Source of the DNA: Burkholderia lata
GTDB lineage: Bacteria > Pseudomonadota > Gammaproteobacteria > Burkholderiales > Burkholderiaceae
DNA length: 64,000 nucleotides
Reading direction: 5' to 3'
Assembly (NCBI RefSeq): GCF_000012945.1
Contig: NC_007511.1
Span: 682,001 to 746,000 of the forward strand
In this document: piece by piece, positions 10,895-36,507 of the stretch
How positions within the stretch are numbered: position 1 is the stretch's first letter
Layout of the letters: each line of letters begins with the position of its first letter
The notes under the pieces: model-generated
Databases searched by the model: none
Told to the model about the DNA's origin: nothing
Seen by the model: only the letters and a program-made list of their open reading frames with translations
Position numbers and translations under genes: made by a program

Positions 10895-10952
10895 GGAAAT
10901 CGGCCTGCGCGCCGTGTCTGCTCGCCCAGTCACGGAGCCCATCGCCGGGGGA

Positions 10953-18738: not shown

Positions 18739-18798
18739 ACGTTGCGTCGAGCGGCGGTGGCGCGTGCCGCCGTCGTGGCGACCGGACACGAGGGCATC

Positions 18799-19671: not shown

Positions 19672-19861
19672 GCGTGCGGGCGTGTGCGGCGGGGCGCGGT
19701 TTCGTCGGACGAATGGTGGCGGATGCCGCTGCGTGTCGATGGTTGCGGTCGCATCGACTCTTCGCCCGATGTCCGGGGCCGAGCCTTTAGAATATGCGCA
19801 AACGGTTGCGTGCGATGCGCGCTCAACCGTCCGGAATGAAACCGATCACCAGCCCCGACGT

Positions 19862-20617: not shown

Positions 20618-20647
20618 GCGCGCGTCGACGCGTGAACCGTTACCAGG

Positions 20648-21889
20648 TCAAAAGCGATCCGCGCGATACGGCGCCGGATCGGTGAACGGCGCTTCGCCCG
20701 TCATCATCTCGGCCAGCAGGCGGCCCGTGACGGGGCCGAGCGTCAGCCCGTGATGGTTGTGCCCGAACGAGAACCACAGCCCGCGATGCGCGGGTGCGGG
20801 GCCGATCACCGGGCGCATGTCGGGCGTGCACGGCCGGAAGCCGAGCCACGGTTGCGGGTCGAGCCGCTCGCCGAAACCGAACACGGGCCGCGCGACGCGT
20901 TCCGCGCGTTCGAGCTGCACGCCGGTCGGCGGCACCCCGCGCCGCGCGATCTCGACGCCGGTCGTCAGCCGCAGCCCGCGCCTCATCGGCGCGATCACGT
21001 AACCGTATTCGCGATCGACGATCGGCGCTGACGGCACGCCGCGCGCGGACGGTGCGTAGTGCATGTGATAGCCGCGCTTCTCGCGCAGCGGGATCTTGTA
21101 GCCGAACTTGCCGAACACCGTGTCGGACCACGGGCCGAGCGCGACGACTACCGCAGGCGCGGCGGCCATGCCGTCCTGCGTGCTGACCTGCCAGCCCGGC
21201 GACAGCGCGTCGAGGCTCGCGGCGTCGCCCGTCAGCAGCGTGCCGCCGCCTTGCACGAAGAGGTGTGCGTACGCTTTGACGAGCTCGGACGGGTCGACGA
21301 CACTTTTCGGGTCGAGCCAGTGCAGCGCGCCGCAGAAGCCGGGCGCGAGGCTCGGTTCGTGCGCGGCCAGCGCGGCCGCATCGAGCGGCGTGATGCCGAG
21401 CCCGTGGCGGCGCGCGGTGAGCCCGGCTTCGGCCACGCCGCGTTCGAATGCGGCCGGTGTGCGGAATGCCTCCAGCCAGCCGTTCGCGCGGATGAGTTCG
21501 CCGGCGCCGGCCCGCGCGATCAGCGCGTCGTGCTCGACGATGCAGCGCTCGATCAGCGGCAGCATGTCGCGCGATGCCGCCGCGTGACGCAGCGGCGCCG
21601 ATTCCCACCAGAAACGTGCAAGCCACGGCGCGAATGCGGGCAGCGACGTGCTGTGCCAGTAGAGATCGGTCGAGCGGTTCAGCGCATAACGCATCAGCGT
21701 GAACGGGCTGCGCGGGAACGGATACGGTTCGACCGACGAGCGCTCGATCAGCCCCGCGTTGCCGAAGCTCGTGCCTTCGCCGGGCGCGCCGCGATCGACG
21801 AGGGCGACCTTGCGGCCGCGATCCTGCAGGTGGAGTGCCGCGGAGACGCCGACGATGCCTGCGCCGAGAACGATGACGTCGAAATCCAT
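20648..21889 (-). CDS. FAD-dependent amino-acid dehydrogenase, DadA-like
   Basis: 413 aa. The N-terminal dinucleotide site VIVLGAGIVGVSAALHL (residues 5-21) is followed by an acidic end of strand 2, a central substrate domain, and a C-terminal FAD motif in GLWFSFGHNHHGLTLGP, a variant of the GH.GG..S strand common in D-amino-acid dehydrogenases. DadA-type enzymes deaminate D-amino acids and pass electrons to the respiratory chain. Substrate unknown. Start at 21889 marks the beginning of homology; the frame is open 35 codons upstream without support. It stands alone between the fucose cluster and an orphan gene. Confidence 0.82.
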   Translation of the reverse strand: MDFDVIVLGAGIVGVSAALHLQDRGRKVALVDRGAPGEGTSFGNAGLIERSSVEPYPFPRSPFTLMRYALNRSTDLYWHSTSLPAFAPWLARFWWESAPLRHAAASRDMLPLIERCIVEHDALIARAGAGELIRANGWLEAFRTPAAFERGVAEAGLTARRHGLGITPLDAAALAAHEPSLAPGFCGALHWLDPKSVVDPSELVKAYAHLFVQGGGTLLTGDAASLDALSPGWQVSTQDGMAAAPAVVVALGPWSDTVFGKFGYKIPLREKRGYHMHYAPSARGVPSAPIVDREYGYVIAPMRRGLRLTTGVEIARRGVPPTGVQLERAERVARPVFGFGERLDPQPWLGFRPCTPDMRPVIGPAPAHRGLWFSFGHNHHGLTLGPVTGRLLAEMMTGEAPFTDPAPYRADRF

Positions 21890-22106
21890 CGATGGTGAGT
21901 GACGGTTAGCGGCGCGCGCCCGCGATGAGGCTTGTGCGCCCGGGTTGGAGAGCCTTCGAACTGCAAGCATACTCGCGGCGGCGTGGGGCACCAAGCGGAC
22001 GCGTGTGGCCCGCGCATGGCAGGTGGCCCGGACGAGACGATTCGCGATCGTCGCGACGACGCGGGCAGTAGAATGCGCGGATTCCGGCCTTCGAAGGTGA
22101 CGCGCG

Positions 22107-22832
22107 ATGATCGAGTTGACCGCAGCGGTTTATGCGGCGGAGTTGAAACGCTACCGCGCGACCGGCAGCGTCTGGCTCGCGGCGGACGAGATTCCGGCCG
22201 ATGTCGACGTGCCGGCTGCATGGCGCGCATTGCTCGCCACGCCGGACGACATGCGAGCGGATACGCTCGTGCAGATGTGGGCCGGCGTCATCGATCGATT
22301 GCCGGCCGTTGCGCAGTTCTTTCACGAAAAGCTCGCGCGTCCGGCCGTGTTCCGCAACGACGGTGGCGACGTCGTGTTGCTCTATCCGTACACGGTCGAG
22401 CACGACGACCTGAATTTCTTCATCGGCCGCGCGCCATTGGGCGAGCGGGGGCTGGATGATGAATCACCCTGGACTGCACTGCCCGAAGATCTGCGGCGCT
22501 TTCATCGAACCGTGCATGACGGCTGGACGTTCTTTCCCGCGAATTCGATGGGGCCGGTGCCGCTCGCCGATCAGGCTGCGCTCGCGGACAAGCTCGACCT
22601 GACACCCGCCGAGACACGCAAGCTCGGCGTGAACCCGGATCTCGTGCGGGCCGTGTTTCATAACGGCAGCGGCGATTGGCTGTGCGTTGATTCGAATGAA
22701 GGGCCCGGCGGTGGCAACCCGGCAGGGTGGTTGTGGTGGCACGAAAACCCGACCGAACTCGAGCCCGTGGATTTCTGGGCCGTGATGAACGCGTGGTTCG
22801 AGATTTTCGTCGAGGAAGCCGACAAGCGATGA
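22107..22832 (+). CDS. Hypothetical protein with SUKH-like C-terminal segment
   Basis: 241 aa, no signal peptide or membrane span, acidic and tryptophan-rich. The last third reads GSGDWLCVDSNEGPGG, then WLWWHENPTELEPVDFW, resembling the core of SMI1/KNR4 (SUKH) proteins, many of which are toxin immunity proteins in bacteria. The N-terminal two thirds I do not recognise. No toxin gene is adjacent, so an immunity role is only a suggestion; a stand-alone housekeeping role is equally possible. Confidence 0.6.
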   Translation: MIELTAAVYAAELKRYRATGSVWLAADEIPADVDVPAAWRALLATPDDMRADTLVQMWAGVIDRLPAVAQFFHEKLARPAVFRNDGGDVVLLYPYTVEHDDLNFFIGRAPLGERGLDDESPWTALPEDLRRFHRTVHDGWTFFPANSMGPVPLADQAALADKLDLTPAETRKLGVNPDLVRAVFHNGSGDWLCVDSNEGPGGGNPAGWLWWHENPTELEPVDFWAVMNAWFEIFVEEADKR

Positions 22833-22880
22833 TCGGACACGCCCGGCGCCTGCCGGGCGCGCGGGCGGTCCACCGCATCG

Positions 22881-23606
22881 TCAACTCATCGCGAACAGCT
22901 TCCCCCATCGCGCCAGCACGCGCGTATCGACCCCCGCCATCCGCAGCGTTTTCCACACCACGGTCGACACCGTGTCGTAAGCGGCGATCCCGGTCGCCTG
23001 TTCGAACGGCCCGGCCAGATGCGCGGCATGCAGGTTCGTGCAGAACGTCGCCACCGCGTCCGGCCGTGCCCGCGCAGCCTGGCGCATCAACGCGGCAATC
23101 TGCGTATCGGGCACTTCCGCGAAGCTGGCGTTGTCGCGTAACCCGAGATGCTGTTCGCCCACGCAATCGATGCCGAGTTGCGCATACTGGCGCACGATTC
23201 GCTGCTGCACGTCGTCGAGATACGGCGTGACGAGGCCGAGCCGCCGCACGCCGGTGCGTTCGAGCAGTTCGTTCAACGCGAGCACGGACGTGGTCGCCGG
23301 AATGCCGGTGGCCTTCTCGATGCCGCGGCACAGGGCCGCGTCGCGTTCGAAGCCCAGCCAGCCGGCCGACGTGCCGCTCCAGCCGATCACGTCGACCCGC
23401 GCGTCGGCGAGCTGCCGCGCCGCGACCAGCATGTGCGCCGCATCGAACTGGTCGAGCGCGGTCTCGGTGAGCGCAATCTCGGTCACGGTGAAGCGAGCGA
23501 AATGCACGCTGACGTCCGGCAAGCCGGCGACGATCGCGGTCGTCAGCGGTTCGAGCGCGGTGTTCGACGACGGCGTCAGGATGCCGATGCGGATGCGCGG
23601 ATTCAT
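22881..23606 (-). CDS. Asp/Glu racemase superfamily protein with a single catalytic cysteine
   Basis: 241 aa. Opening IRIGILTPSSNTALEP matches the maleate-isomerase/arylmalonate-decarboxylase branch. Most relatives use two cysteines. Here the second is present (TFCTNLHAA, near residue 187), but the position of the first is occupied by the GWSGTSAGW loop without cysteine. That arrangement is known in arylmalonate decarboxylase, so decarboxylation or a non-racemase isomerisation is plausible. It is the last gene of the eight-gene minus-strand operon, 14 bp after the deaminase. Exact reaction unknown. Confidence 0.75.
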   Translation of the reverse strand: MNPRIRIGILTPSSNTALEPLTTAIVAGLPDVSVHFARFTVTEIALTETALDQFDAAHMLVAARQLADARVDVIGWSGTSAGWLGFERDAALCRGIEKATGIPATTSVLALNELLERTGVRRLGLVTPYLDDVQQRIVRQYAQLGIDCVGEQHLGLRDNASFAEVPDTQIAALMRQAARARPDAVATFCTNLHAAHLAGPFEQATGIAAYDTVSTVVWKTLRMAGVDTRVLARWGKLFAMS

Positions 23607-23620
23607 CGCAGGGCTTCCGT

Positions 23621-25003
23621 TCAATCGAGCAACTGACGCACCGCATCGACGGCAGCACGGCGCAGCGCAGCCAGGTCGAGGCCCGGAATCTCGCCGTTGT
23701 CCACCACGACGCGGCCATTCACGATGTTGTATTTCACTGGCGCGGGCTCGCCGGCCGCGACCGGTGCGATTGCGTAGTCGTGGAAGCCGTTGAAGCGCGG
23801 CCCGCTCACGTCGTACAGCACGAGATCGGCGGCCTGGCCTGCTTCGAGCGTGCCGACCGCGTTCAGCCCGAGCACGCGCGCGCCGCCTTGCGTGCCCCAG
23901 TGCAGCACGTCCTCGGCGGTGGTGGCCGCCGCACCGTGCGCCGCGCGATGCACGAGCCACGCAAAATTCGCTTCGTGCGTCATGCTGCCGGATTCGTTCG
24001 ACGCGACGCCATCGACACCGAGCGACACCGGCACGCCGGCCGCCGCCATGCGCGGCGCGGGCGCGATGCCGCTGCCGAGCCGCGCATTGCTGACAGGGCA
24101 GTGCGAGCAGCCGGTGCCAGTCTCGGCGAGCATCGCGATTTCGTTCGCTTCGAGATGGACGAGGTGCGCGAACCACACGTCGGGCCCGAGCCATTCGTGC
24201 TCCGCGACGAATTCGACGGGCAGCTTGCCGTAGCGCTCGCGGCAGAAATCGACGTAGCGCGTCGTCTCCGACAGGTGCGAATGCAGCCGCAGGCCCATTC
24301 CGCGCGCCGCACGCGCGACCTCGGGCAGCAGGTCGGGCGGCAGCGAGAAGGTCGGCGTGGTCGGGGCGACGACCACGCGGCGCATCGATGCCGTGCCCGC
24401 GTCGTGATAGCGCGCCTTCAGCCGCTCGATGTCGGCCAGCATCTGGTCGAGCGTCTCGGGTTGCAGCGCGGTGCCGGCGAAGCCCGGATGATCGCCGGCC
24501 GCCTGCAACGCGCCGCCGCGGCACAGCACGAAGCGCATCCCGAAGCTGGCCGCTTCGTCGAACAGCAAGTCGCCGGTCTCGGTCGTGCCGCCCGCGTGAT
24601 ACAGGTAGTGATGATCGGCGCAGGTTGTCACGCCGGACAGCAGCAGCTCCGCGAAGCCGAGCCGAGCGGCGATGCGCGCGAGTGCCGGCGTAAAGCGGGC
24701 GACGCGCGGATACGGCACGGCCGCGAGCCATTCCTGCAGGCCCGCGTTGATCCCCGACGGCACGGCTTTCAGCAGGTTCTGGAACAGGTGGTGATGCGTG
24801 TTGACCCAGCCCGGGTAGACGACGCAGTCGGTCGCGTCGATCACGCGTTCGCCGGGCAGCGGCGTGAGGCCGGGCGCGATCGTGTCGATCCGGCCGTCGC
24901 GGACGCGCAGGTCGGCGGAGCCGAGCCGCGCGGCGTCGCCGGTGCGGCCGCTCATGACCGCGATCGGGTTGCGGATCAGCAGCGAAGAAGAAGGAACACT
25001 CAT
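23621..25003 (-). CDS. COG0402 amidohydrolase, 8-oxoguanine/isoxanthopterin-deaminase-like
   Basis: 460 aa. Metal-dependent deaminase of the TRZ/ATZ group. Metal ligands are in NTHHHLFQ (near residue 71), HLSE, AHLVHL and GVDGVASNE. The THHHLFQNL loop resembles that of 8-oxoguanine deaminases. A GGAGGAGA ribosome site precedes the ATG. The next gene upstream in the operon is a nucleobase permease, so the substrate is probably an amino-substituted N-heterocycle brought in by it. Guanine, isoxanthopterin, isocytosine or s-triazine derivatives cannot be separated by sequence alone. Confidence 0.8.
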   Translation of the reverse strand: MSVPSSSLLIRNPIAVMSGRTGDAARLGSADLRVRDGRIDTIAPGLTPLPGERVIDATDCVVYPGWVNTHHHLFQNLLKAVPSGINAGLQEWLAAVPYPRVARFTPALARIAARLGFAELLLSGVTTCADHHYLYHAGGTTETGDLLFDEAASFGMRFVLCRGGALQAAGDHPGFAGTALQPETLDQMLADIERLKARYHDAGTASMRRVVVAPTTPTFSLPPDLLPEVARAARGMGLRLHSHLSETTRYVDFCRERYGKLPVEFVAEHEWLGPDVWFAHLVHLEANEIAMLAETGTGCSHCPVSNARLGSGIAPAPRMAAAGVPVSLGVDGVASNESGSMTHEANFAWLVHRAAHGAAATTAEDVLHWGTQGGARVLGLNAVGTLEAGQAADLVLYDVSGPRFNGFHDYAIAPVAAGEPAPVKYNIVNGRVVVDNGEIPGLDLAALRRAAVDAVRQLLD

Positions 25004-25090
25004 GGTCGGGTCTCCTCGGATTCGGATAGTCGGATCGTGATTCGTCGGGCGCCGCGCGCAGGCTCGACGCCGCTCGCGGCATACAGCCCG

Positions 25091-26464
25091 TCAGTCGCAC
25101 TCGCGCGCCATCGGGCTGGCGTGCGCGGCGTCGGCATGCACGTGCGATTCAACGGGTTCGGCCGCCGGCACGCCGTTGAGCAGCGCGTTGAGCAGCACCG
25201 ACACGAGGCACGCGAGCACGACGCCGCTGTGCAGGAAAGGCTGCGTCCAGTCGGGCATGTGCGCGAACACCTTCGGCGCCATCACCGGAATCAGCGCGGT
25301 CGCGATCGTGAAGCCGACGATCAGCACGTTGTAGCGGTTGTTCTCGAAGTCGACTTTCGCGAGCGTCTGCACGCCGGCGGCGACGACCACGCCGAACATC
25401 GCGATACCCGCACCGCCGAGCGCGGCCGACGGCGTCGACGCGACGATCGCGCCGATCTTCGGCACCAGCGCGACGACGCACATCAGCACGCCGCTGACCG
25501 CGACGATCCAGCGGCTGCGCACGCCGGTCAGGATCACGAGCCCGACGTTCTCCATGAACGCAATGAACGGAAACGCGGCGAACGTGCCCGCGATCGCGCT
25601 TGCGACGCCGTTCGCGCGCAGCCCGCGCACGACGTCCTCCTCGCTCACCTGCTTCTCGACGATGTCGCCGATCGCGACGAACAGGCCCATCGACTCGACC
25701 ATCTGCACGATCATCACGATGACCATCGTCAGCACCGGCACGATCGCGAACACCGGCGTGCCGAAGTGGAACGGGTAGGGCACGGTGAACCACGGCGCGG
25801 CCGCGACGTTCGTGAAGTTGCCCATCCCGAGCGCGATCGCGAGCAGGCTGCCGGCGACGAGCCCGATCAGCACCGACAGGTTGCGCAGGAACGCGTTCGC
25901 GAAGCGGTTGACCGCGAGGATCACGACCGCGACGACGAGCGCGACCGCGAGAAACGACAGCTCGCCGAACTGGAGCTTCGCCGCGTCGCCGCCGCCGGCC
26001 CACTGGTACGCGACCGGAAACAGCTGCAACCCGATCACGGTGACGATGCAGCCCGTCACGACCGGCGGGAACAGGCGGCGCAGCCGGCCGACCAGCGGCG
26101 CGGCGAAGGTCGTGATGATGCCCGCGCCGATCACCGCGCCGCATACGCCGGCGAACCCCACGCCCGGCGTCAGGCCGATCGCGATCACCGGGCCGACGCT
26201 GCTGAACGCGACGCCCTGCAGGATCGGCAGGCGCACGCCGAGCTTCCAGACGCCGACCGTTTGCAGGATCGTCGAGATGCCGGAACAGAACAGCGCGGTG
26301 CTGATCAGCACGGTCGTGTCGGCGGGCGACATCTTCAACGCCGACGCGACGATCAGCGGCACCGCGATCGCGCCGATATAGGCGACGAGCATGTGTTGCA
26401 GGCCGAGCGTCAGCATCTGGCGGCGCGGCAGGACCCGATCGACGGGATGTGAAGCAGCGTTCAT
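25091..26464 (-). CDS. NCS2 nucleobase:cation symporter
   Basis: 457 aa with about 12-14 hydrophobic segments. Family landmarks: the GLQHMLVAYIGAIAVPLIV start, LQGVAFSSVGPV, MVESMGLFVAIGD and the FMENVGLVILTGVRSR helix, which resembles the NCS2 signature. Members import xanthine, urate, uracil or related rings with H+ or Na+. Start at 26464 has an AGGAGA ribosome site; the frame continues upstream without one. Lying between the CobW and deaminase genes, it defines the type of substrate used by the operon. Confidence 0.9.
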   Translation of the reverse strand: MNAASHPVDRVLPRRQMLTLGLQHMLVAYIGAIAVPLIVASALKMSPADTTVLISTALFCSGISTILQTVGVWKLGVRLPILQGVAFSSVGPVIAIGLTPGVGFAGVCGAVIGAGIITTFAAPLVGRLRRLFPPVVTGCIVTVIGLQLFPVAYQWAGGGDAAKLQFGELSFLAVALVVAVVILAVNRFANAFLRNLSVLIGLVAGSLLAIALGMGNFTNVAAAPWFTVPYPFHFGTPVFAIVPVLTMVIVMIVQMVESMGLFVAIGDIVEKQVSEEDVVRGLRANGVASAIAGTFAAFPFIAFMENVGLVILTGVRSRWIVAVSGVLMCVVALVPKIGAIVASTPSAALGGAGIAMFGVVVAAGVQTLAKVDFENNRYNVLIVGFTIATALIPVMAPKVFAHMPDWTQPFLHSGVVLACLVSVLLNALLNGVPAAEPVESHVHADAAHASPMARECD

Positions 26465-26525
26465 GGGCGAGTCTCCTGAGGTTCGTTTTCGGGCGAGCGC
26501 GCGACGCGCCCGCCTGGCGTGCCCG

Positions 26526-27635
26526 TCAGGCCGCGACCGCCGCGGCGAGACAGGCATGGAAACGGTCGGTCAGCGCGGCGCGATCGAGATCGCGGCCGAT
26601 GAAAACGATGCGCGACGAGCGCGGCTCGCACCCCCACGCCTGCGCGGCGCGCAGTTCGATCACGCCGTGCACGCCCTGCAGCACGTAGCGCTGCGCGCGG
26701 CCCTGCACGGCGAGGATGCCTTTCATCCGGAACAGGTTCGCGGTATCGGAGTGGCGTAGCTCGCCGAGCCACGCTTCGAGCGCGTCGAGATCGACGTCGG
26801 CATCGACTTCGATGCCGACCGACGACACGCTTTCGTCGTGCTCGTGATGATCGTGATCGTCGTCGTGTGCGTGGGCTTCGTAAGCGTGGTCGTCGTGCTC
26901 ATGATCGTGCTCGTGCGCCTGTTCGTCCGCATGCGGTGCATCGGCCTGCAGCCCGTCGCTCTCGACGAGGATCTGCGCGAATTCATTCGCGCCGATCCCG
27001 AGGATGCGGTCGAGATCGACCTGCGCGTAGCTCGACGTGACGATCTCGGCCGTCGTGTTCAGCTCGCGCAGCCGCGCGGTCAGCGCATCGACGTCGGGCG
27101 TGTCGACGAGATCGACCTTGTTGATCACGATCCGGTCCGCGCAGACGATCTGGTCGACGGCCTGGTTGTCGCGGCCGTCGAGCACCAGATCGTCGAGATG
27201 CGCGCGGATATGCTTCGCATCGACCATCGTGACGACCGCGTCGAGCGCGACTTCCTTCGCGATCGGATCGTCGAGGAAGAAGGTCTGCGCGACCGGATAC
27301 GGATCGGCGAGGCCGCTCGTCTCGACGATGATGTGATCGAGCCGGTCGGGGCGCGCGACGAGCATCCGCACGATCCGCACGAGATCCTCGCGCACCGCGC
27401 CGACGCAGCACACGCAGCCGTTCGTCATCTCGTAGATTTCCTCGGTCGATTCGAGCACGAGCCCGCCGTCGATGCCGATTTCGCCGAACTCGTTCTCTAT
27501 CACCGCGATCTTGCGGCCGTGCTTCTCGCGCAGGATGTAGTTCAGCAGCGTGGTCTTGCCCGCCCCGAGAAAGCCCGTGAGCACGGTGACCGGAATCTTT
27601 TCGACGTCGCTGTGGGTGGTGTGGATGTGGGTCAT
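26526..27635 (-). CDS. CobW/COG0523 GTPase with histidine-rich loop
   Basis: 369 aa. P-loop GFLGAGKTT near residue 20, switch region GCVCC (the CxCC metal site) near residue 68, NKVD for guanine binding. Between the two domains (about residues 240-275) is a loop very rich in histidine and aspartate, typical of zinc-handling members of the family. The CobW C-terminal domain follows. COG0523 proteins deliver or allocate metals. Here the operon encodes three metal-dependent amidohydrolases, which are probable clients. Its start overlaps the ubiX stop by 4 bp. Confidence 0.88.
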
Positions 27636-28246
27636 GATGCGTCTCCGTTGAGTCGGTTGGGCTGCGGATGGTGCCGGGATTCGCTGTCCTTCCAGCGATG
27701 GACGGTGCGGGAATCGAGGTCGAACAGGTCGAGCACGCGGCCGAGCGTGTGGTCGATCATCTGGTCGAGCGAAGCGGGGCGCGCATAGAACGCCGGCACG
27801 GGCGGCGCGACGATCGCGCCCATTTCCGTGACGGCGGCCATGTTGCGCAGATGCGTGAGCGTGTACGGCGTTTCGCGTGCGAGCAGCACGAGCCGGCGGC
27901 GCTCCTTCAGTACGACGTCGGCCGCGCGCGAGATCAGGCCGGATGAAAGGCCGCTCGCGATCTCGGCGAGCGTCTTCATCGAGCATGGCGCGACGATCAT
28001 TCCGAGCGTGCGGAACGACCCGCTCGAGATCGGTGCCGCGATGTCGTCGCTGCGGTACAGCACGCTCGCGAGCGCGGTGATGTCGGACAGCCGGAAGTCG
28101 GTCTCGTGCGCCATCGTCAACGCGGCGGCGCGCGACACGACCACGTGCGTCTCGATGTCGAGTTCGCGCAGCAGCGCGAGCAGCCGCATCCCGTACACGA
28201 AGCCGGACGCGCCGCTGATGCCGACCACGAGCCGCCGCGCGCTCAT
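27632..28246 (-). CDS. ubiX: UbiX-family flavin prenyltransferase
   Basis: 204 aa. The nucleotide/flavin segment [15 protein letters not shown] starts at residue 9. The [25 protein letters not shown] stretch and the [13 protein letters not shown] loop are those of UbiX/Pad1 proteins, which make prenylated FMN for UbiD decarboxylases. It overlaps ubiD by 4 bp, the classical partnership. Because this copy lies in a catabolic operon it likely serves the neighbouring UbiD protein rather than ubiquinone synthesis. Confidence 0.9.
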
Positions 28247-29637
28247 CGCGACGCTCCGCCGAGTTGCGCGATCACTTGCGCGGCGCGCTGCATCGCGGCG
28301 TCGCCGACACGTGCGCGCACGCCGTCGAAGCGCGAGCCGCGCGTCGCGTCGATCCCCATCCGCGACGTCGTGCCGTCGGACGACGACGACGGATCGAGCG
28401 GGCTGCCGGGCAGGCCGTCGACGACGAACAGGTCGCGGTGCGGCTGGAAGTGCGTCGCGATGGCCCACAGAACCTGCGCGTCGTCGGTGATGTCGACGTC
28501 GCTGTCGACCGCGATGACGTTCTTCAGGTACGGGTCCCAGCCGAGCAGCGCAAGCATGATCTGGCGCGCTTCGCCGTCGCGCGACTGCTTCAGCGCGACG
28601 TAGCAGTGGAAGTGCGTGCCGGAATTCGGGTAGTGAATGGCGGTGACGGACGGAAAGCGCGCCTTCAGCTTTTCGCTCATCTCGGCTTCGCGCGGCAGCC
28701 GCGCAAGCGTCAGGTGCTCCGCGTACGGGCCGCCGACCACATCGACGAGCCACGCGTCCTTGCGCCGCATCATCGCGTCGATGCGCAGTACGTTGTTGGT
28801 CGAGCGGTCCGACGAGTAGCCGGTGAATTCGCCGAACGGGCCTTCTTCCGCATGCGCATCGGGATCGATCGTGCCTTCGAGCACGAACTCAGCGGCGGCC
28901 GGTACGCCGATGCCGTGACGCGGCGTGCGCACGAGTTGCAGCGGTGCGCCGAACAGTCCGCCGGCGATCGCGCGCTCGTCCGCGCCGAACGGCACGCGCG
29001 CGGCGGCCGCGAGCATGAACAGCGGATGCGCGCCGATCACCATCGCGACTTTCAGCGTGTCGCCGCGCGCCTTGGCGGTCTGCAACATCCGCCACAGATG
29101 TCCGCGCGAATGCAGGCTCGTCGCCAGCGCGTTGCGTGCATGCGGCATCGAGCGGTGGTAGCTCAGGTTCGCGACGCCCGTCACCGGATCTTCGGCAACG
29201 ATCACCGCGTTGGTCACGTAGGGCCCGCGATCCGTTTCGAAGTGGCGGATCATCGGCAGTTGTGCGAGATCGACCGCATCGCCTTCGGTCACCTGATCGA
29301 GCACGGAGCCGTGCGGCACGACGACCGGCGCGACGGGCGCGTTCGCACGCTGTTGCCACGCGTCGAACAGGCCGTTCGCCTCGACGCCGAACAGCCGGCC
29401 GATGCGCGTGCGGGACGCAAATACGTTGGTGACGAGCGGCGTCGAAAGGCCGTCGACGCGCTCGCAGACGAGCATCTCGTGCCGCCCGCGCGCGGCGAGC
29501 GACGCGACGACGGCCGTGACGTCCTGGTCGGCGGACAGCGGCTGCGCGAGCGTCAGCACGTCGTCCGGAAAGCGTTCGCGATACGCGTTCGCGAAGTGAT
29601 GGAAATCCTGCTGCTCGGCGAAAAGGCTGGACGCCAT
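28243..29637 (-). CDS. UbiD-family prenylated-FMN decarboxylase
   Basis: 464 aa. UbiD fold with the conserved arginine in NLSYHR near residue 174, the glutamates of the E-R-E catalytic set in [11 protein letters not shown] near residue 275, and the DSDVDITD metal loop near residue 385. These enzymes reversibly (de)carboxylate aromatic, heteroaromatic or unsaturated acids. Together with UbiX, the NCS2 permease and the deaminase, a heterocyclic carboxylate is the likely substrate. Length (464) is slightly short of the ubiquinone UbiD (about 500). Confidence 0.88.
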
Positions 29638-29718
29638 GATGCACTCCGTCGGATACGGAAGGGGAAAGGCCGGATCGCACGCGTGTTCAAGGCGGTACGC
29701 GATCCGGCTGCCGGCGCG

Positions 29719-30624
29719 TTACAGGTAGGTCGATGTGAGGCGCTTCTGCGCTTCGTCGAGATCCTTCGGCGGCTTGGTCGGCTCGATGCCGACGAGGCGG
29801 GCGATGTTGTTGCCCATGTAGTCCTCGAGGCCGTCCTCGTCGAGATCCATCCCCTGCGGCGCGGGCCCGCACAGCATCTCCAGCTCGCGCAGCCACATGC
29901 CGGGTTCGTTCGGCGGCGAATCGGTGCCGAACACGATCTTGTTGCGCGGCAGCTCGCGGGCGAACTCGACGATCCGCGACTGGTAGCACCAGCCCGATTC
30001 GCAGTACACGTTCGGCGTATCCATCGCCATCCAGAACGCTTCGAACGAGTAGTTGCCACCCGTCTGGATGCCGAAGTGACCGATGATGAAGTTCACCATC
30101 GGAAACTCGCGGATGATCGGGTAGAACTGCGTCGGGATCGTGTACGGCCCGTCGCCGGTGTGGATCAGCACGACGATGTTGTACTTCGCGCAGACCTTCA
30201 TCGCCGGGCGGAGCCAGTCGAGCGCGCGATCGGGCCGGTAGCCGTGCATGTTCGCGTGCAGCTTCACCATCTTGAAGCCGTACTCCTTGATGTGGAATTC
30301 GAGCTCCGCCGCGCCGTTTTCCGGGCCCCAGCGCGGGTTGTACGTGAAGTTGCCGATGAAGCGGTCGGGGTACTTCTGCGTGAGTTCGGCGATGTACGCC
30401 ATGTAGTCGCGAATGCCGTCGCGGCCGCGACGGTTGCCGTCACGGTAGCCGGTGTTGCCGGGCGGCGGCTGGATGAAGCCCATGTCGATGCGACGCGGCT
30501 TGCCGTTGATGATGTACGGGCCGTCCATCATCTTCAGCAGGCGTTCGCCGGTGAACGGTTCGCCGGTGTGGCGCCAGGCTTCGTCGACGAGGTTGGTCGG
30601 GTGCAGGTGCGTATCGATGATCAT
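29719..30624 (-). CDS. ACMSD-like amidohydrolase (COG2159), catalytic-type copy
   Basis: 301 aa. The N-terminal HxH is intact (IDTHLHP, His6 and His8). Further ligands appear in LIHTGDG, IIGHFG and FGTDSPP, the usual set of the ACMSD/gamma-resorcylate-decarboxylase group, whose members decarboxylate or hydrate aromatic and pyrone acids. About half its residues match the neighbouring protein encoded at 30661-31563, so the pair arose by tandem duplication. Likely cytoplasmic. Substrate unknown; context points to a step after ring opening or a second decarboxylation. Confidence 0.82.
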   Translation of the reverse strand: MIIDTHLHPTNLVDEAWRHTGEPFTGERLLKMMDGPYIINGKPRRIDMGFIQPPPGNTGYRDGNRRGRDGIRDYMAYIAELTQKYPDRFIGNFTYNPRWGPENGAAELEFHIKEYGFKMVKLHANMHGYRPDRALDWLRPAMKVCAKYNIVVLIHTGDGPYTIPTQFYPIIREFPMVNFIIGHFGIQTGGNYSFEAFWMAMDTPNVYCESGWCYQSRIVEFARELPRNKIVFGTDSPPNEPGMWLRELEMLCGPAPQGMDLDEDGLEDYMGNNIARLVGIEPTKPPKDLDEAQKRLTSTYL

Positions 30625-30660
30625 GCAATGCTCCGGAATCGGGAGAGAGGGGCGCGAGCG

Positions 30661-31563
30661 TCAGGCGGCGAGCAGCGCTTTCGCTTCGTCGACGGTGCGC
30701 GGCGCGGGCGTCGGTTCGAGACCGATCATCCGGGCCGTGTTGTTGCCGAGGTAATCCTCGAGCGTGTCCTCGTCGAGATTCATCCCTTGTGGCGGATCGA
30801 AGCAGAGCACTTCGAGCAACCGCAGCCACATTCCCGGTTCGTTCGGCGGCGTGTCGGAGCCGAACAGGATCTTGTGCTTCGGCAGCACCTTCGCGAATTC
30901 GACGATCCGCGACTGCAGGCACCAGCCCGATTCGCAATACACGTTCGGCAGGTCCATCGCGAGCTGGAACGGCTCGAAACAGTAGACGCCGCCGGTCTGC
31001 ACGCCGAAGTGCGCCATGATGAAATTGACCGTCGGGAATTCCTTGATCATCGGCACCCACTCGGTCGGGATGCTGTACGGGCCGTCGCCGGTGTGCAGCT
31101 TCACGAGCACGCCGAGTTCCGCGCACTTCTTCAGCGCGGGGCGCAGCCAGTCGAGTGCGCGATCGGGCCGGTACGCATGCATGTTGGCCTGGAACTGCAC
31201 CATCTTGAAGCCGAGCTTGCGCACGTAGTGATCGATCGCGTTCACGCCGTTCTCCACGCCGCAGCGCGGGTTGTAGACGAAGCAGCCGATGAAGCGGTCG
31301 GGGTGCTTGCGGACCATCTCGACCGTGTACGCCATGTACGCGTCGATCGATTCGGTGCCCGACTTCTCGCCGTCGGTATACGTATAGATGGTGTTGCCTT
31401 GCGGCGGCTGGATGAACGCCTTGTCGACGCGGCGCGGCTTGCCGTTGATGAGGAACGGGCCGTTCATCGTCTCGATCAGGCGCTCGCCGGTGAACGGCGG
31501 GCCGTCGTGACGCCATGCGAGGTCGACGAGATTCGTCGGGTAACAGCTGGTGTCGATGATCAT
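30661..31563 (-). CDS. ACMSD-like amidohydrolase paralogue lacking the HxH metal motif
   Basis: 300 aa, first gene of the eight-gene operon. It is colinear with the next protein and keeps the later metal-site regions (KLHTGDG, MAHFGVQ, FGSDTPP), but residues 6-8 read S-C-Y (IDTSCYP) instead of H-L-H. Loss of two metal ligands suggests a non-catalytic or differently metallated subunit, perhaps forming a heteromer with its neighbour. The rest of the fold is well preserved, with no frameshift or stop, so it is under selection rather than decaying. Confidence 0.82.
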   Translation of the reverse strand: MIIDTSCYPTNLVDLAWRHDGPPFTGERLIETMNGPFLINGKPRRVDKAFIQPPQGNTIYTYTDGEKSGTESIDAYMAYTVEMVRKHPDRFIGCFVYNPRCGVENGVNAIDHYVRKLGFKMVQFQANMHAYRPDRALDWLRPALKKCAELGVLVKLHTGDGPYSIPTEWVPMIKEFPTVNFIMAHFGVQTGGVYCFEPFQLAMDLPNVYCESGWCLQSRIVEFAKVLPKHKILFGSDTPPNEPGMWLRLLEVLCFDPPQGMNLDEDTLEDYLGNNTARMIGLEPTPAPRTVDEAKALLAA

Positions 31564-31805
31564 CTACTCGATCTCCTTGAGAGGAACCGGAAAAGCCGGT
31601 TGCCGTATCGCGGGCAGGCACGTCGATGAAGCGACCTGTCGGTCGGATTCATGCGGCCCTTTGCAAGGCGCATTTTTTTTCGCGCCTTCCCCTCGCCGGC
31701 ATCGAGTGACACACTGCGACGTGCACTGCTGCTTGGGACCGAGTGTCACCAGCCGAATGTGCTCTGTACAATATTTTTTACTGACGCTCTTGATACGTTT
31801 GCGAT
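31564..31805. promoter_or_regulatory. Divergent promoter region of the UbiD operon and its LysR gene
   Basis: 242 bp with AT-rich stretches (T-run 31672-31680; TACAATATTTTTTA near 31766-31779). The arrangement of a LysR gene divergent from the operon is the usual one for LysR autoregulation and activation. I could not single out a convincing T-N11-A site. Confidence 0.45.
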
Positions 31806-32696
31806 ATGGACATGCGTGTGTTGCGGTACTTCGCGGTGCTGGCCGACGAACTGCATTTCGGGCGCGCAGCCGCGCGGCTCCATATCTCGCAGCCGCCGTT
31901 GAGCCAGCAGATCCGGCTGCTCGAAGAGCAGCTCGGCACCGCGCTGTTCGTGCGCTCGCAACATCGCGTCGAATTGACCGAGGCAGGGAAAACACTGAAG
32001 GAGCAGGTGCCGCTGATCGTCGCGCAGTTCGATCGCGCGATCGATCTCACGCGCTGCGCGGGGCGTGGCGAAGTGGGGCGGCTCGCGGTCGGCATCATCA
32101 GCTCGGCGATGGTCGTGCCGATACCGCGTGCGTTGCGCGTGTTCGCCGAGCGCCATCCGCACGTGCACTGGTCGCTGCACGAGATGACACCGGCCGCGCA
32201 GATCGACGCACTGAAGGAGAAGCGGCTCGACGTGTGCTTCTTCCGGCTGTTCCAGGACGATCCGTCGATCCGTAGCGAGATCGTTGTGCGCGAAACGGCC
32301 GTGGCCGTGTTGCCGTCCGGCCATCCGCTCGCGTCGCGCGATGCGATCGCGCTCGGCGAGCTGGCCGGCGAGCAGTTCGTGTCATTCGGCTTGCGGCATT
32401 CGCAACTGGCGCGCTTCCTGCAGCAGAGCTGTGTCGATGCGCGCTTCACGCCGCAGATTGCGCACGAGGTTGTCGAGGTGCACACGCTGCTGTCGCTGGT
32501 GCGCGAAGGGCTGGGTGTCGCGTTGCTGCCCGCGTCGTCGCGGCAGATCTCGACGGGCGGCGTCGTGTTCGTGCCGCTGCTGCCGCCCGAGCTGGAGGTG
32601 TCGCTGCAGGCGCGTTACCGCGCGGACGATACGTCCGCGGTGCTCGGCGCGTTCCTCGACACCGTGCGCGAGGTCGCGGCGGCGTTCAACGCGTAA
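31806..32696 (+). CDS. LysR-type regulator, probable activator of the UbiD operon
   Basis: 296 aa. N-terminal winged helix-turn-helix (residues 1-60) with AARLHISQPPLSQQIRLLEE, and a substrate-binding domain resembling the BenM/CatM/CbnR group that senses aromatic catabolites (for example EMTPAAQIDALKEKRLDV and the SLVREGLGVALLPAS strand). It is transcribed away from the eight-gene operon starting at 31563. The aromatic-sensing subgroup fits a ring-degrading pathway. Inducer unknown. Confidence 0.88.
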   Translation: MDMRVLRYFAVLADELHFGRAAARLHISQPPLSQQIRLLEEQLGTALFVRSQHRVELTEAGKTLKEQVPLIVAQFDRAIDLTRCAGRGEVGRLAVGIISSAMVVPIPRALRVFAERHPHVHWSLHEMTPAAQIDALKEKRLDVCFFRLFQDDPSIRSEIVVRETAVAVLPSGHPLASRDAIALGELAGEQFVSFGLRHSQLARFLQQSCVDARFTPQIAHEVVEVHTLLSLVREGLGVALLPASSRQISTGGVVFVPLLPPELEVSLQARYRADDTSAVLGAFLDTVREVAAAFNA

Positions 32697-32705
32697 CGAG
32701 GCGTA

Positions 32706-33599
32706 TCAGTGCCCGAGCGACTGCGCGACGAGCGTGCCGATCGCGTCGATCAGCGGCTTCACGCGCGCATGGCGCTCGCGCGGCCAGATCGCATGCAGGT
32801 TGTAGTGCGTCGGAATCGCGATCGTGCAGAGTTCGACGAGCCGGCCGTCGCGGCGCGCATCGGCGGCGAGCAGCCCGCGCACCAGCCCGGCACCGAGCCC
32901 CGATGCGAGCGTCGCGACGAGCCCCGCCGCGTTGTCGAACACGGCGATCGTCTCCGGTTCGACGGGCTCGAGCCCGGCCGCTTCGAGCCACGGAATCCAC
33001 GATCGCTTCGTATAGCCGAGCAGCGGCAGTTCGAGCACCTGTTCGGGCGTGAGCGGCGCGGTCAGCCCGTAACGTTCGAGCAGCGCGGGTGCGGCCATCG
33101 CGGTCAGCCGGTCGGGGCAGACCAGCGCGCTGTCCACGCCTTCCCATTCCCCGTAGCCGTAGCGCAGCGCAACATCGACGCGATCGAATGCATCGCGGTC
33201 GTGGCGCGGTGCCGACAGTACCGTCAGCGTCGTGCCGTCGAGCGTGTGCATCAGTGCCGGCAGCCGCGCAGGCAGCCAGCCCTGCATCAGCTCCGGATCG
33301 ACGTCGAGCCGCAGTGACGGCCCGGTCGTGCGCCCCTTCACCGACGACAGCGCGCGATCGATCTGTTCGAGCCCGTCCGACAGCTGGTTCGCGAACAACG
33401 TGCCGGCATCGGTCAGCATCACGCGGCCGCCGGCGCGGGCGAACAGCGGCTGGCCGATGAATTCCTCGAGCGAGCGAATCTGCTGGCTGATCGCGCTGTG
33501 CGTGAGCGCCAGCTGGCGTGCCGCGCTGGAAAAACTGCCGACCCGCGCGGCCTGCAGAAACGCTTGCATCGACTGGATCGAAGGGTATCGCTTGAGCAT
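32706..33599 (-). CDS. LysR-type regulator (GcvA-like), divergent from iorAB
   Basis: 297 aa. Winged helix at residues 8-65 (AARQLALTHSAISQQIRSLEE, the GcvA-like variant), and a substrate domain with the RYGYGEWEGVDSALVCPDRL strand. Its start is 130 bp from the start of the iorA-like gene on the other strand, so it most likely regulates that gene pair. It is convergent with the LysR gene at 31806. Confidence 0.87.
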   Translation of the reverse strand: MLKRYPSIQSMQAFLQAARVGSFSSAARQLALTHSAISQQIRSLEEFIGQPLFARAGGRVMLTDAGTLFANQLSDGLEQIDRALSSVKGRTTGPSLRLDVDPELMQGWLPARLPALMHTLDGTTLTVLSAPRHDRDAFDRVDVALRYGYGEWEGVDSALVCPDRLTAMAAPALLERYGLTAPLTPEQVLELPLLGYTKRSWIPWLEAAGLEPVEPETIAVFDNAAGLVATLASGLGAGLVRGLLAADARRDGRLVELCTIAIPTHYNLHAIWPRERHARVKPLIDAIGTLVAQSLGH

Positions 33600-33728
33600 C
33601 TGTTAGTCCGACTGACAGGGAATCGACGAAATGATCGCTGGCGTACCCGTGCATCGCGTTTCGATAATGCTCCGCAACCGCGCCATGGACGCGGGCCGAC
33701 ATCATGAATGCGAATCAGGAGACAGCGC

Positions 33729-34223
33729 ATGATCGACATCGTCGTGAACGATACACGCCATTCGCTCGAGAATGTACCGGAGGATATGCCGTTGCTGTGG
33801 GTGCTGCGCGACCGGCTCAAGCTCACCGGCACGAAGTTCGGCTGCGGCAAGGGCCTGTGCGGCGCGTGCACCGTGCATCTCGAAGGGCAGGCCGTACGCG
33901 CGTGCCTGATTCCGGCCGTCGCCGCGCACGGGCGGCACGTGACGACGATCGAGGGGCTGTCGCCGGACGGGCGCCATCCGCTGCAACTCGCGTGGGTGGC
34001 CGAGGACGTGCCGCAATGCGGCTATTGCCAGCCGGGGCAACTGATGCAGGCTGCCGCGCTGCTGAAGGGCGGGCAGCCGGTGGACGATGACGCGATCGTA
34101 CAGGCGATGTCGGGCAACATCTGCCGCTGCGGTACGTATGCGCGCATTCACCGCGCGATCAAGCGTGCGGCGTCCGGCGATCCGGCGCTGAAGGCCGCGG
34201 CCGAACCCGCGAAGGAGGCGTGA
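33729..34223 (+). CDS. iorA: Molybdenum hydroxylase small subunit, [2Fe-2S] (IorA-type)
   Basis: 164 aa. Two [2Fe-2S] clusters: plant-ferredoxin-type cysteines in [13 protein letters not shown] (residues 38-50) with a fourth in RACLIP, and the second-domain set CGYCQPGQ and CRCGTY. This is the electron-transfer subunit of xanthine-oxidase-family hydroxylases of the isoquinoline 1-oxidoreductase type. AGGAGA precedes the ATG at 33729. It pairs with the large subunit starting 1 bp after its stop codon. Confidence 0.9.
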
Positions 34224-34224
34224 C

Positions 34225-36507
34225 ATGCGCGACGATCACGCACCGGACGCACCGGACGCACCGGACGCACCGCACGCACCGCACGCACCGCACGACCACG
34301 GCACGCCGCGCCGGCGCTTCCTCAAGCAGAGTTCGGCATTGCTTGCCGCAGGCATCGCGATCGGTTTCCGGATGCCCGACGCGGTGGCCGCGGGCAAGAG
34401 CACAAGCGGCGATCCCCATCCGTCCACCGGCGAATTCGAACCGAACGCGTGGGTGCGTGTGCTGCCCGACGACACGATCAAGCTCGTTGTGCACAAGCAC
34501 GATTCGGGTACGGGCACGCGCACCGCACTCGCGGCGATGGTGGCCGAGGAACTCGACGTCGATCCGTTCCGGGTCGACGTGATCACGCCGGAAGATCCGT
34601 TCTTCGCCGACTACATCCACCCGCTGTGGAAGGTGTTTTCGACCGGCGGCAGCACGAGCGTCGCGATGGAGTACGACCGGCTGCGTCGTGCGGGCGCGAC
34701 CGCGCGTGCGATGCTCGTCGAGGCGGCGGCGCATCAATGGGGCGTGCCCGCCGCTGCGTGTACGACGGCAGACGGCGCCGTGCTGCATGCGGCGAGCGGC
34801 CGCCGGGCGACGTATGGCTCGCTCGCATCGGCGGCCGCGCAGTTGCCGGCGCCGAAACAGGTCGTGCTGAAAGATCCCTCGCAGTTCCGCTACATCGGCA
34901 AGCTGCGCAAGAAGCGCGGCGCTGCGCAGAAGGCCGACGGTTCGTTTCCGTACAGCATCGACGTGTCGCTGCCGGGGATGCTGGTCGCGGTCGTCACGCG
35001 CGCGCCGGTGATCGACGGCCGCGTGCGCAGCGTCGATGCGAAGGCAGCGCTCGCGATTCCCGGCGTGCGCGACGTGCTGCAGATTCCGCCGCGCCCCGAC
35101 GTGCTCGGCGGCAACCAGGCCGGCGTCGCAGTGCTCGCGGACGACTACTGGTCAGCCCACAAGGGGCAGGCCGCGTTGACGATCGAATGGGAGGACAGCC
35201 TGTTCGAGACGTTCGACAGCAGCGCGCTCGCCGCGCGCCAGGCCGCGTGGGTCGACGATCCGGCCGCGCGCGTCGTACCGACGATTGCCGACGGCGATCC
35301 GGCGAAGGCGCACACGGCCGGCGCGCGCACGATCGAGGCGTCGTACGCGATGCCGCACAAGGCCGCGAATCCACTGGAGCCGATCAACCTCACCGTGTGG
35401 GCGCGCAACGGCGGCATCGAATTCTGGGGCGGGTTGCAGGTGCCGTCCACCGCGATGGAAGCGGCTGAAGTGATCGGCGGCATTCCTTCGCATCGCGTGA
35501 CGTTGCACGAGCTGGTGTCGGGCGGCAGCTTCGGCGCGCGCGAATCGAAGTACTGGCTGTTCGAGGCGACGTGGCTCGCGGTGAAGACCGGCAAGCCGGT
35601 GAAGCTGATGAACAGCCGCGAGGACGAGATGCGTGCGCTGTTCTATCACGCGGCAAGTTACCACCGCGCGCGCGCCGTGCTCGATGCGCAGGGCAATCTG
35701 GCCTCGCTGTGGCTGCGCGGTGTGATGCCCGCATCGCCGCAACAGTGGGAGCCCGGCTATCTGGAGCGCACCGACCGGATGGATTTCAGCACGACCGAGG
35801 CGCTCACGAAATGGGAGTTTGCGTATGCGGCGCCGCATCGCGACATCGGCTGGATCCGGATGGAGACGGGCGTGCCGACCGGCTGGTTTCGCGCGGTGAG
35901 CTACATCCCGAACGTGTTCGCCGTCGAATCGGTGATGGACGAGGCCGCGCATGCGGCGCGGCGCGATCCGGTCGAGTTTCGGCTCGCGCACATGCGCGAC
36001 CGGCCGCGCCATGCGGCCGTGCTGCGTGAAGCGGCGCAACGGGCGGGGTGGGGGCAGCCGCTGCCGGACGGTGTTGCACTCGGCATCGCGACGAACCAGG
36101 CGTACGACAGCTATGTCGCGGTGGTCGCGCGTGTCGTGCGCAAGGACGGCGCGGTGCGCGTGGAGAAGCTGACGTGCGTCGCCGATTGCGGGATCGCGGT
36201 GTCGCCCGCCGGCGTCGACGAGCAACTGTACGGCGGCCTGATGTGGGGGCTCGGCCATGCGACGTCCGATCGCATCGATTTCCGGCACGGCCGCGTGCAG
36301 CAGTCGAACTTCGATACGTATCGCGTGATGCGGATGAGCGACATGCCCGATACCGACATTCATATCGTGCAGGGCGATCCGGCGAAGCCGGGCGGTGTCG
36401 GCGAGCTGTCGAGCCCGGCGGTGACGCCCGCGATTGCGAACGCGGTGTTCCGGCTGACGGGGAAGCGGTTGCGGGAGACGCCTTTCGATTTGTCGGCGGT
36501 GGCGTAG
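34225..36507 (+). CDS. iorB: Molybdenum hydroxylase large subunit with Tat signal (IorB-type)
   Basis: 760 aa. Twin-arginine export motif RRRFLKQSS at residues 29-37 followed by a hydrophobic stretch, preceded by a repeat-encoded Asp/His/Ala/Pro tail. The mature part follows IorB-type molybdopterin-cytosine-dinucleotide subunits: HDSGTGTRTALAAMVAEEL, SGGSFGARES and GGVGELSSPAVTPAIANAVF, where the last glutamate is the presumed catalytic base. It hydroxylates N-heteroaromatic rings or aldehydes at the carbon next to nitrogen, at or beyond the inner membrane. No cytochrome subunit gene is adjacent. Substrate unknown. Confidence 0.88.
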   Translation: MRDDHAPDAPDAPDAPHAPHAPHDHGTPRRRFLKQSSALLAAGIAIGFRMPDAVAAGKSTSGDPHPSTGEFEPNAWVRVLPDDTIKLVVHKHDSGTGTRTALAAMVAEELDVDPFRVDVITPEDPFFADYIHPLWKVFSTGGSTSVAMEYDRLRRAGATARAMLVEAAAHQWGVPAAACTTADGAVLHAASGRRATYGSLASAAAQLPAPKQVVLKDPSQFRYIGKLRKKRGAAQKADGSFPYSIDVSLPGMLVAVVTRAPVIDGRVRSVDAKAALAIPGVRDVLQIPPRPDVLGGNQAGVAVLADDYWSAHKGQAALTIEWEDSLFETFDSSALAARQAAWVDDPAARVVPTIADGDPAKAHTAGARTIEASYAMPHKAANPLEPINLTVWARNGGIEFWGGLQVPSTAMEAAEVIGGIPSHRVTLHELVSGGSFGARESKYWLFEATWLAVKTGKPVKLMNSREDEMRALFYHAASYHRARAVLDAQGNLASLWLRGVMPASPQQWEPGYLERTDRMDFSTTEALTKWEFAYAAPHRDIGWIRMETGVPTGWFRAVSYIPNVFAVESVMDEAAHAARRDPVEFRLAHMRDRPRHAAVLREAAQRAGWGQPLPDGVALGIATNQAYDSYVAVVARVVRKDGAVRVEKLTCVADCGIAVSPAGVDEQLYGGLMWGLGHATSDRIDFRHGRVQQSNFDTYRVMRMSDMPDTDIHIVQGDPAKPGGVGELSSPAVTPAIANAVFRLTGKRLRETPFDLSAVA
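34240..34293 (+). repeat. Six tandem 9-bp repeats inside iorB
   Basis: Three copies of GCACCGGAC followed by three of GCACCGCAC, perfectly in tandem, encode (Ala-Pro-Asp)3(Ala-Pro-His)3 just before the Tat motif. In-frame copy-number change would only alter the tail length. Confidence 0.9.

Follow-up and report, generated by a model that had tools for sequence, protein, structure and literature searches.

A conserved operon of Burkholderia lata pairing an amidohydrolase with its degenerate twin is a candidate pteridine-to-xanthine pathway

A 64,000-nucleotide stretch of the Burkholderia lata genome (contig NC_007511.1, positions 682,001 to 746,000; henceforth the window), with a GC content of 65.7% and drawn from a genome of 8.68 Mb in three contigs, encodes at 22881-31563 an eight-gene minus-strand operon that combines a nucleobase-type permease, a deaminase, a UbiD/UbiX decarboxylase system, two related amidohydrolases (AHc and AHp) and a CobW-family GTPase. 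As the original prediction had read from the sequence, the genes are separated by less than 90 bp or overlap by 4 bp: going from RAC to AHp, the intervals are 14, 87, 61, -4, -4, 81 and 36 bp, with the UbiX gene overlapping its CobW and UbiD neighbors by 4 bp at either end. From the promoter side, the order is AHp, AHc, UbiD, UbiX, CobW, NCS2, DEAM and RAC, and 242 bp separate AHp from a divergent LysR gene. The genes, with best start codons and families confirmed by Pfam and NCBIfam searches, are as follows:

22881..23606, minus strand: RAC, arylmalonate decarboxylase-like protein (AMDase/EutA/maleate isomerase superfamily), putative accessory (PF17645, 81 bits)
23621..25003, minus strand: DEAM, COG0402-type deaminase, predicted isoxanthopterin deaminase (NF009059/PRK12393, 804 bits, cut-off 543)
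25091..26464, minus strand: NCS2 permease of the xanthine-permease subfamily, predicted pteridine/xanthine uptake (PF00860; TIGR03173, 467 bits, cut-off 414)
26526..27635, minus strand: CobW-family GTPase metallochaperone with a His/Asp-rich stretch (PF02492 and PF07683, CobW_C)
27632..28246, minus strand: UbiX flavin prenyltransferase, supplying prenylated FMN (prFMN) (NF004685 and TIGR00421, above cut-off)
28243..29637, minus strand: UbiD, prFMN-dependent decarboxylase, predicted to act on xanthine-8-carboxylate (TIGR00148, 284 bits)
29719..30624, minus strand: AHc, metal-binding amidohydrolase, proposed catalytic half of a cycloisomerase (PF04909, 162 bits)
30661..31563, minus strand: AHp, degenerate paralogue of AHc, proposed partner subunit (PF04909, 118 bits)
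31806..32696, plus strand: divergent LysR-type regulator (PF00126 and PF03466)
33708..34223, plus strand: IorA-type [2Fe-2S] subunit of a molybdenum hydroxylase, read from its sequence
34225..36507, plus strand: IorB-type molybdenum subunit, predicted pteridine hydroxylase (C6/C7), with a twin-arginine-like signal RRRFLKQ

The family assignments made earlier for the NCS2 permease, the COG0402 deaminase, UbiD/UbiX, the two ACMSD-family amidohydrolases and CobW hold in these searches, as does the presence of the flanking LysR gene, a probable regulator of the operon. The molybdenum hydroxylase pair, previously placed at 33729-36507, is also present, at 33708/33729-36507; its IorB subunit finds its best PDB match in the large subunit of an aldehyde dehydrogenase (8gy3_C, 204 bits). 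A second LysR-looking open reading frame lies between the LysR gene and iorAB (32706-33599, minus strand) and has a counterpart in Burkholderia arboris (locus L013).

One assignment had to be revised. RAC, earlier described as Asp/Glu-racemase-like, scores 81 bits against PF17645 (cut-off 26) as opposed to 26 bits against Asp_Glu_race (cut-off 31), placing it nearer arylmalonate decarboxylase (AMDase), while the NCBIfam EutA/AMDase models are under cut-off (NF052327, 76 bits versus 225). When it is aligned to AMDase, Gly78 and Cys189 fall at two positions which we take to be active-site positions, and Asp/Glu racemases presumably need two catalytic cysteines. As only one cysteine is present, we reject a role as an Asp/Glu racemase and regard RAC as a putative AMDase-like accessory, to which the pathway proposed below assigns no step.

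A scan of genome contigs for relatives of the twin amidohydrolases recovered 315 loci, of which the best 80 were kept. The counts that follow refer to the 62 full-length loci among these (at least 20.8 kb; the 18 shorter ones are left out), with presence scored within 10 kb; they are close relatives picked by AHc similarity and not a random sample. In all 62, AHp, AHc and UbiD are contiguous and collinear on one strand, and UbiX and CobW are each found alongside them; the NCS2 permease is present in 61, a LysR match in 58 (with an identity of only about 30% in some) and DEAM in 47. The order from AHp through AHc, UbiD, UbiX, CobW and NCS2 to DEAM is kept in 45 loci and extends to RAC in 22. 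RAC itself occurs in 26 loci and is absent from 36, and hence is not part of the core. A molybdenum hydroxylase (IORB or CoxL homologue) accompanies the operon in 56 loci: 44 have the iorAB type, with an IORA homologue, and 12 an XDH-like CoxMSL type. Two distant hydroxylase types thus alternate in one slot, which argues for a hydroxylation as part of the pathway. The conserved neighborhood and the co-occurrence with iorAB that the original prediction had proposed looking for in other Burkholderiales are thus both found, and the core set is not limited to Burkholderia.

The set also reaches well beyond these loci. We found 91 twin-positive plasmid records (182 twin sites), and seven that were inspected (two each from Sinorhizobium and Ensifer, and one each from Shinella, Paracoccus and Ponticoccus) all combine the twins, UbiD, UbiX, CobW and an XDH-like CoxMSL with a cytosine-deaminase-like amidohydrolase; in six of the seven, all but Ponticoccus, the stretch also encodes an NCS2 permease. 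The twins come paired here as elsewhere: a sample of the order (n = 399) yielded five positive genomes, each with two amidohydrolase copies. Among five genomes searched from the family of one relative, G002, the twins occur only in G002 itself and in G175. Homologues named for Streptomyces, Nocardia, Humibacter and Caldilineales appear among the best 120 of 304 matches. Chance clustering is rejected, as Burkholderia and Pseudomonas share the arrangement of the genes and the core recurs as far away as Sinorhizobium.

AHc is the most conserved protein of the set, its median identity over the 62 loci being 93%, where UbiD reaches 80% and LysR 74%. Burkholderia arboris LMG 24066 has the same AHc sequence as the window. 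For a catabolic enzyme this is unusual conservation: AHc is at least 90% identical in all 62 loci and 85-88% identical in the alphaproteobacterial records. A second type of module is seen in five loci from Paraburkholderia, Caballeronia and Burkholderia (L047, L049, L050, L053 and L064), which is without its own DEAM and has its own NCS2 and an iorB 45-46% identical, with RAC in four of the five. In L049 and L064 genes of the window type stand beside such a module, which suggests that the two types serve two related substrates.

The best PDB match of DEAM, over nearly its full length, is 2paj (467 bits), followed by 3hpa (304 bits), and it is nearer to 2PAJ than to any other solved COG0402 enzyme. 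We take 2PAJ to be the isoxanthopterin deaminase that Hall et al. reported in 2010, a protein from environmental DNA, and the signature of that enzyme to be Gln, Tyr, Thr and Thr residues recognizing C4, N5 and C7. The residues Q75, Y133, Y135, T215 and T216 are present in 57 of 57 DEAM orthologues with at least 45% identity and in all five from whole genomes. DEAM is hence predicted, from its sequence, to be an isoxanthopterin deaminase, an activity described in a review as converting isoxanthopterin to violapterin. Thr-Thr versions of DEAM (56-73% identical) occur in all five other twin-bearing whole genomes, in one of which (G314) the gene lies about 13 kb from the twins. For Cupriavidus loci without DEAM within 10 kb, a 70%-identical DEAM is listed for C. 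pauculus and C. respiraculi, one of the two being named isoxanthopterin deaminase by its source.

The second-best family of DEAM is 8-oxoguanine deaminase (NF006055, 430 bits), which raises the alternative that the operon salvages 8-oxoguanine or guanine, with the deaminase producing urate from 8-oxoguanine and the remaining genes providing loosely related purine functions. Yet this score is under the cut-off of 532, and DEAM has an APTT motif with Thr-Thr in place of the Cys-Ser of the APCS motif in 3HPA. The host moreover encodes another deaminase with 40% identity to DEAM and the APCS motif, which adjoins HIUase and the urate oxidase PuuD at its urate locus (L121, on contig G000:C2, 5082-8603), so that this genome already seems to have an enzyme for 8-oxoguanine. 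A second match, 40-44% identical, is likewise present in each of the five other twin-bearing genomes, and the one checked (L132) is of the Cys-Ser type. On these grounds we reject DEAM as the 8-oxoguanine deaminase of the genome, and as salvage would also give no function to the invariant core of UbiD, UbiX and the twins, we hold this alternative to be very improbable.

A biochemical precedent gives these observations a frame. McNutt et al. are said to have described in the 1960s, in Alcaligenes faecalis, a sequence from isoxanthopterin through 7-hydroxylumazine, tetrahydroxypteridine and xanthine-8-carboxylate to xanthine. Its isomerase, acting on tetrahydroxypteridine to give xanthine-8-carboxylate, is the tetrahydroxypteridine cycloisomerase EC 5.5.1.3.

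The twins are 64% identical but differ at the metal site, a difference absent from the original prediction. We assume that the metal and catalytic residues of ACMSD-type (PF04909) amidohydrolases are an HxH motif followed by His, His and Asp. Of the 91 records compared, L114 and L115 do not contain both twins in full, which leaves 89, with Sinorhizobium meliloti represented two times. In all 89, AHc retains H6, H8, H155, H183 and D235; in AHp the HxH motif is replaced by Ser and Tyr in the same 89, while H157, H185 and D237, the equivalents of the other three, are kept. By sequence AHp is thus a member of the same family but apparently not a standard metalloenzyme. Because the loss of HxH is invariant in AHp, we propose that AHc and AHp probably form an obligate heteromer. 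A further hint comes from PDB entry 4ifk, which we take to be an ACMSD and whose title describes an arginine of the neighboring subunit as essential for catalysis; it makes it plausible that AHp would complete the active site of AHc. We suggest the pair as a candidate for EC 5.5.1.3, with CobW predicted to metallate the amidohydrolases. The AlphaFold2 model of AHc (pLDDT 88.4) matches ACMSD, LigW, LigJ, dihydroxybenzoate decarboxylases and uncharacterized amidohydrolases with similar scores, and the fold hence cannot separate a hydrolase from a decarboxylase. It follows that the amidohydrolases could instead be the decarboxylase of the pathway, with UbiD acting at another step.

UbiD contains the domains PF20695, PF01977 and PF20696, and its closest solved relatives are HmfF (6h6v, 223 bits) and AnInD (166 bits). 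Its R162, E265 and E270 align with both, and we take this Arg-Glu-Glu set to be the catalytic triad of UbiD decarboxylases. Enzymes of this family act on varied heteroaromatic acids; as HmfF and AnInD act on five-membered-ring heteroaromatic acids and xanthine-8-carboxylate is such an acid, UbiD fits the decarboxylation that would yield xanthine.

The genomic context of relatives connects this end point to urate catabolism. One stretch of G002 has a run of urate-catabolism genes followed by the twins, UbiD, CoxMSL and CobW. The run comprises the urate oxidase PuuD (PF06181, 417 bits), the allantoinase PuuE (501 bits against a cut-off of 425), OHCU decarboxylase (184 against 96), allantoate amidohydrolase (531 against 479), HIUase (PF00576, 83 bits; TIGR02962 79.5 bits, under its cut-off of 87.45) and an NCS2 xanthine permease. 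The same urate gene set lies on the twin contig of G175 (by tblastn). In both of these relatives DEAM and a UbiX homologue are encoded on other contigs. In the sample of the order, OHCU decarboxylase is present in five of five twin-bearing genomes versus 87 of 394 others (Fisher p = 6e-4, uncorrected for phylogeny). The host genome itself has XDH (1329 bits, cut-off 849.5) along with homologues of PuuD, HIUase, PuuE and OHCU decarboxylase.

A further connection is seen in the leaders of AHp in four relatives. That of S. meliloti contains a xanthine riboswitch (RF03054, 43.4 bits, gathering threshold 36), and a permissive Rfam search found RF03054 in G002, G175 and Janthinobacterium at 32.6, 34.4, 32.8 and 29.5 bits, all sub-gathering (E 4e-4 to 9e-3). 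In each of the four species an element ends 111-128 nt upstream of the AHp start. The Janthinobacterium cluster holds DEAM, and that of S. meliloti the cytosine-deaminase-like enzyme. Of the two Janthinobacterium sites, the one at 32.8 bits (L077, 840-912) is a second riboswitch-like element, between the UbiX and CobW homologues. Riboswitches of the RF03054 class are reported to have xanthine and urate as ligands and to turn off genes whose products would otherwise generate oxidized purines; they are found in association with amidohydrolases of the PRK12393 family, to which DEAM belongs (PMC7373994). If a twin/UbiD operon is under an OFF switch of this kind, its expected product is xanthine or urate.

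Taken together, the 2PAJ-type deaminase, the adjacency of urate genes and the xanthine riboswitch narrow the substrate class to pteridines whose breakdown ends in xanthine. We consider it likely that the operon serves to import oxidized pteridines and degrade them as far as xanthine, from where the ordinary urate pathway would take over. The pteridine would be imported by the NCS2 permease, and DEAM would strip the 2-amino group, converting isoxanthopterin to 7-hydroxylumazine. The molybdenum hydroxylase, IorAB here and CoxMSL elsewhere, would then act on the pyrazine ring to give 2,4,6,7-tetrahydroxypteridine; of relevance to such a step, xanthine oxidase is recorded as converting lumazine to violapterin. 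The AHc/AHp heteromer, metallated with the help of CobW, would open the cyclic amide, and reclosure on the neighboring amine as an imidazole would yield xanthine-8-carboxylate, the net reaction being the isomerization of EC 5.5.1.3. UbiD, with prFMN from UbiX, would finally remove the 8-carboxylate to release xanthine. We slightly favor the more specific proposition that AHc/AHp, as an obligate heteromer of a metallo-amidohydrolase and a metal-less twin, is the EC 5.5.1.3 enzyme and that together with UbiD it constitutes a widespread proteobacterial pteridine-to-purine pathway, controlled by xanthine riboswitches in some species. The original prediction, that an amino-substituted N-heterocycle (of purine, pterin or pyrimidine type) is hydroxylated, deaminated and decarboxylated, is thus supported; the fourth step foreseen, ring cleavage, gives way to what is more probably a ring contraction.

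Other routes could draw on the same enzymes. One starts from folate: pterin-6-carboxylate would be deaminated, UbiD would decarboxylate lumazine-6-carboxylate, and the ring would be opened hydrolytically without passing through xanthine. Isoxanthopterin deaminases, as Hall reportedly described in 2010, also accept pterin-6-carboxylate, and the breadth of heteroaromatic acids taken by UbiD enzymes would accommodate the second step. Lumazine-6-carboxylic acid is moreover named as a candidate intermediate of folate breakdown in PMC9513972. However, the xanthine OFF switch and the adjacency of urate genes would be unexplained unless ring contraction followed, and we regard this route as unlikely. 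A second alternative is suggested by xanthine consumption in clostridia, in which xanthine is converted to 4-ureido-5-imidazolecarboxylate and 4-amino-5-imidazolecarboxylate; here the amidohydrolases would open the xanthine ring, UbiD would decarboxylate the product and the deaminase would make imidazolone. The enzyme classes (hydrolases, a decarboxylase and a deaminase) fit, and the module does lie in the purine islands of two relatives. Nevertheless, an OFF switch has the wrong sign for an operon that consumes xanthine, the deaminase resembles a pteridine deaminase, the conserved molybdenum hydroxylase would be left without a clear job, and the adjoining urate genes give xanthine another fate, all of which makes this alternative quite improbable. 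The conversion of pteridines to xanthine accounts for the sign of the riboswitch, which is predicted for an operon that makes xanthine or urate.

Several observations weigh against this interpretation. The alphaproteobacterial clusters use a different deaminase, nearest to cytosine deaminase and below the family cut-offs, which was not found in the five other twin-bearing whole genomes. Among the best 120 of 839 matches to it, the names are of the kind 'cytosine deaminase' and 'amidohydrolase family protein', with no link to the pterin deaminase Arad3529. This deaminase would be compatible with a different azaheterocycle as the substrate, for example an aminopyrimidine or a pyrazine carboxylate, with xanthine sensed as a sign of purine sufficiency; yet the 2PAJ-type deaminase, the urate adjacency and the xanthine riboswitch agree on a purine or pteridine, and we give this possibility very little credence. 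For the pteridine-to-xanthine route itself, 15 of the 62 loci are without a deaminase within 10 kb and six without a molybdenum hydroxylase; the urate-linked stretches of G002 and G175 have neither deaminase nor UbiX, and that of G175 also has no CobW. The fold relatives of AHc are mostly decarboxylases, hydratases and uncharacterized amidohydrolases, and not isomerases. No RF03054 element was found in the window at the gathering threshold, nor in window positions 18000-38000 at E up to 5, the operon there having a divergent LysR gene instead. Seven further loci (L057, L063, L101, L102, L103, L105 and L106) had none at gathering; the remaining fetched loci were searched by pattern alone. In 121 sequences the pattern placed leader sites only in the four relatives named above, and its scattered matches outside leaders (L019, L020, L025, L084 and L105) were treated as chance. 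Finally, a search directed to the open-licence papers of PMC found no description of the pathway or of these genes for it.

Apart from the operon, the sole Rfam match in the window at the gathering threshold is the Burkholderia small RNA ncS037 (RF02868, 154.6 bits), at positions 10864-11014 on the minus strand.

Neither the enzyme families nor the reactions are new in themselves; within the open-licence literature searched, the assignment of genes to reactions, the heteromeric twin and the link to the riboswitch appear to be. Folate and the pigments of insects are built on the pteridine ring. If the proposal is correct, it would provide genes for an orphan ring-contraction enzyme and for a xanthine-8-carboxylate decarboxylase, and explain how soil bacteria could mineralize the pterins of folate, biopterin and insect pigments. 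It would extend UbiD chemistry to purine carboxylates, add a new type of reaction to the amidohydrolase superfamily and give a function to a deaminase family already tied to xanthine riboswitches. In a 2007 review, EC 5.5.1.3 is among 228 orphan activities and is ranked as difficult (PMC1940265). One mass feature is assigned to both tetrahydroxypteridine and xanthine-8-carboxylate in another study (PMC5941619), as expected of two isomers.

Parts of the proposed pathway have counterparts in known systems. The isoxanthopterin deaminase that we associate with 2PAJ shares with DEAM a 467-bit match and the Thr-Thr motif, but the gene for DEAM has operon neighbors that are proposed to contract the ring and to decarboxylate the product. 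Tetrahydroxypteridine cycloisomerase, an orphan in 2007, has as its net reaction the step proposed for AHc/AHp. The pterin deaminase pathway of Variovorax sp. F1 has deamination of the pterin ring in common with ours; that route is described as far as deaminopteroate, and the sections consulted mention neither UbiD nor twin amidohydrolases (PMC9513972). The xanthine (NMT1) riboswitch regulon includes the same PRK12393 deaminase family and the same aptamer family as the twin leaders of the relatives, while the paper on it has no word that starts with UbiD, pterin, pteridine or lumazine and names isoxanthopterine solely among purchased compounds (PMC7373994). The furandicarboxylate decarboxylase HmfF and the indole-3-carboxylate decarboxylase AnInD have the Arg-Glu-Glu residues in common with the UbiD of the operon, for which the predicted substrate is, by contrast, a purine-8-carboxylate. 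Likewise, the ACMSD/LigW/LigJ enzymes (PF04909) share their fold with AHc, which has the expected metal ligands; the likeness in sequence is nonetheless slight (28 bits to LigW-type enzymes), AHp is without HxH, and the reaction predicted for the AHc/AHp pair is a ring contraction.

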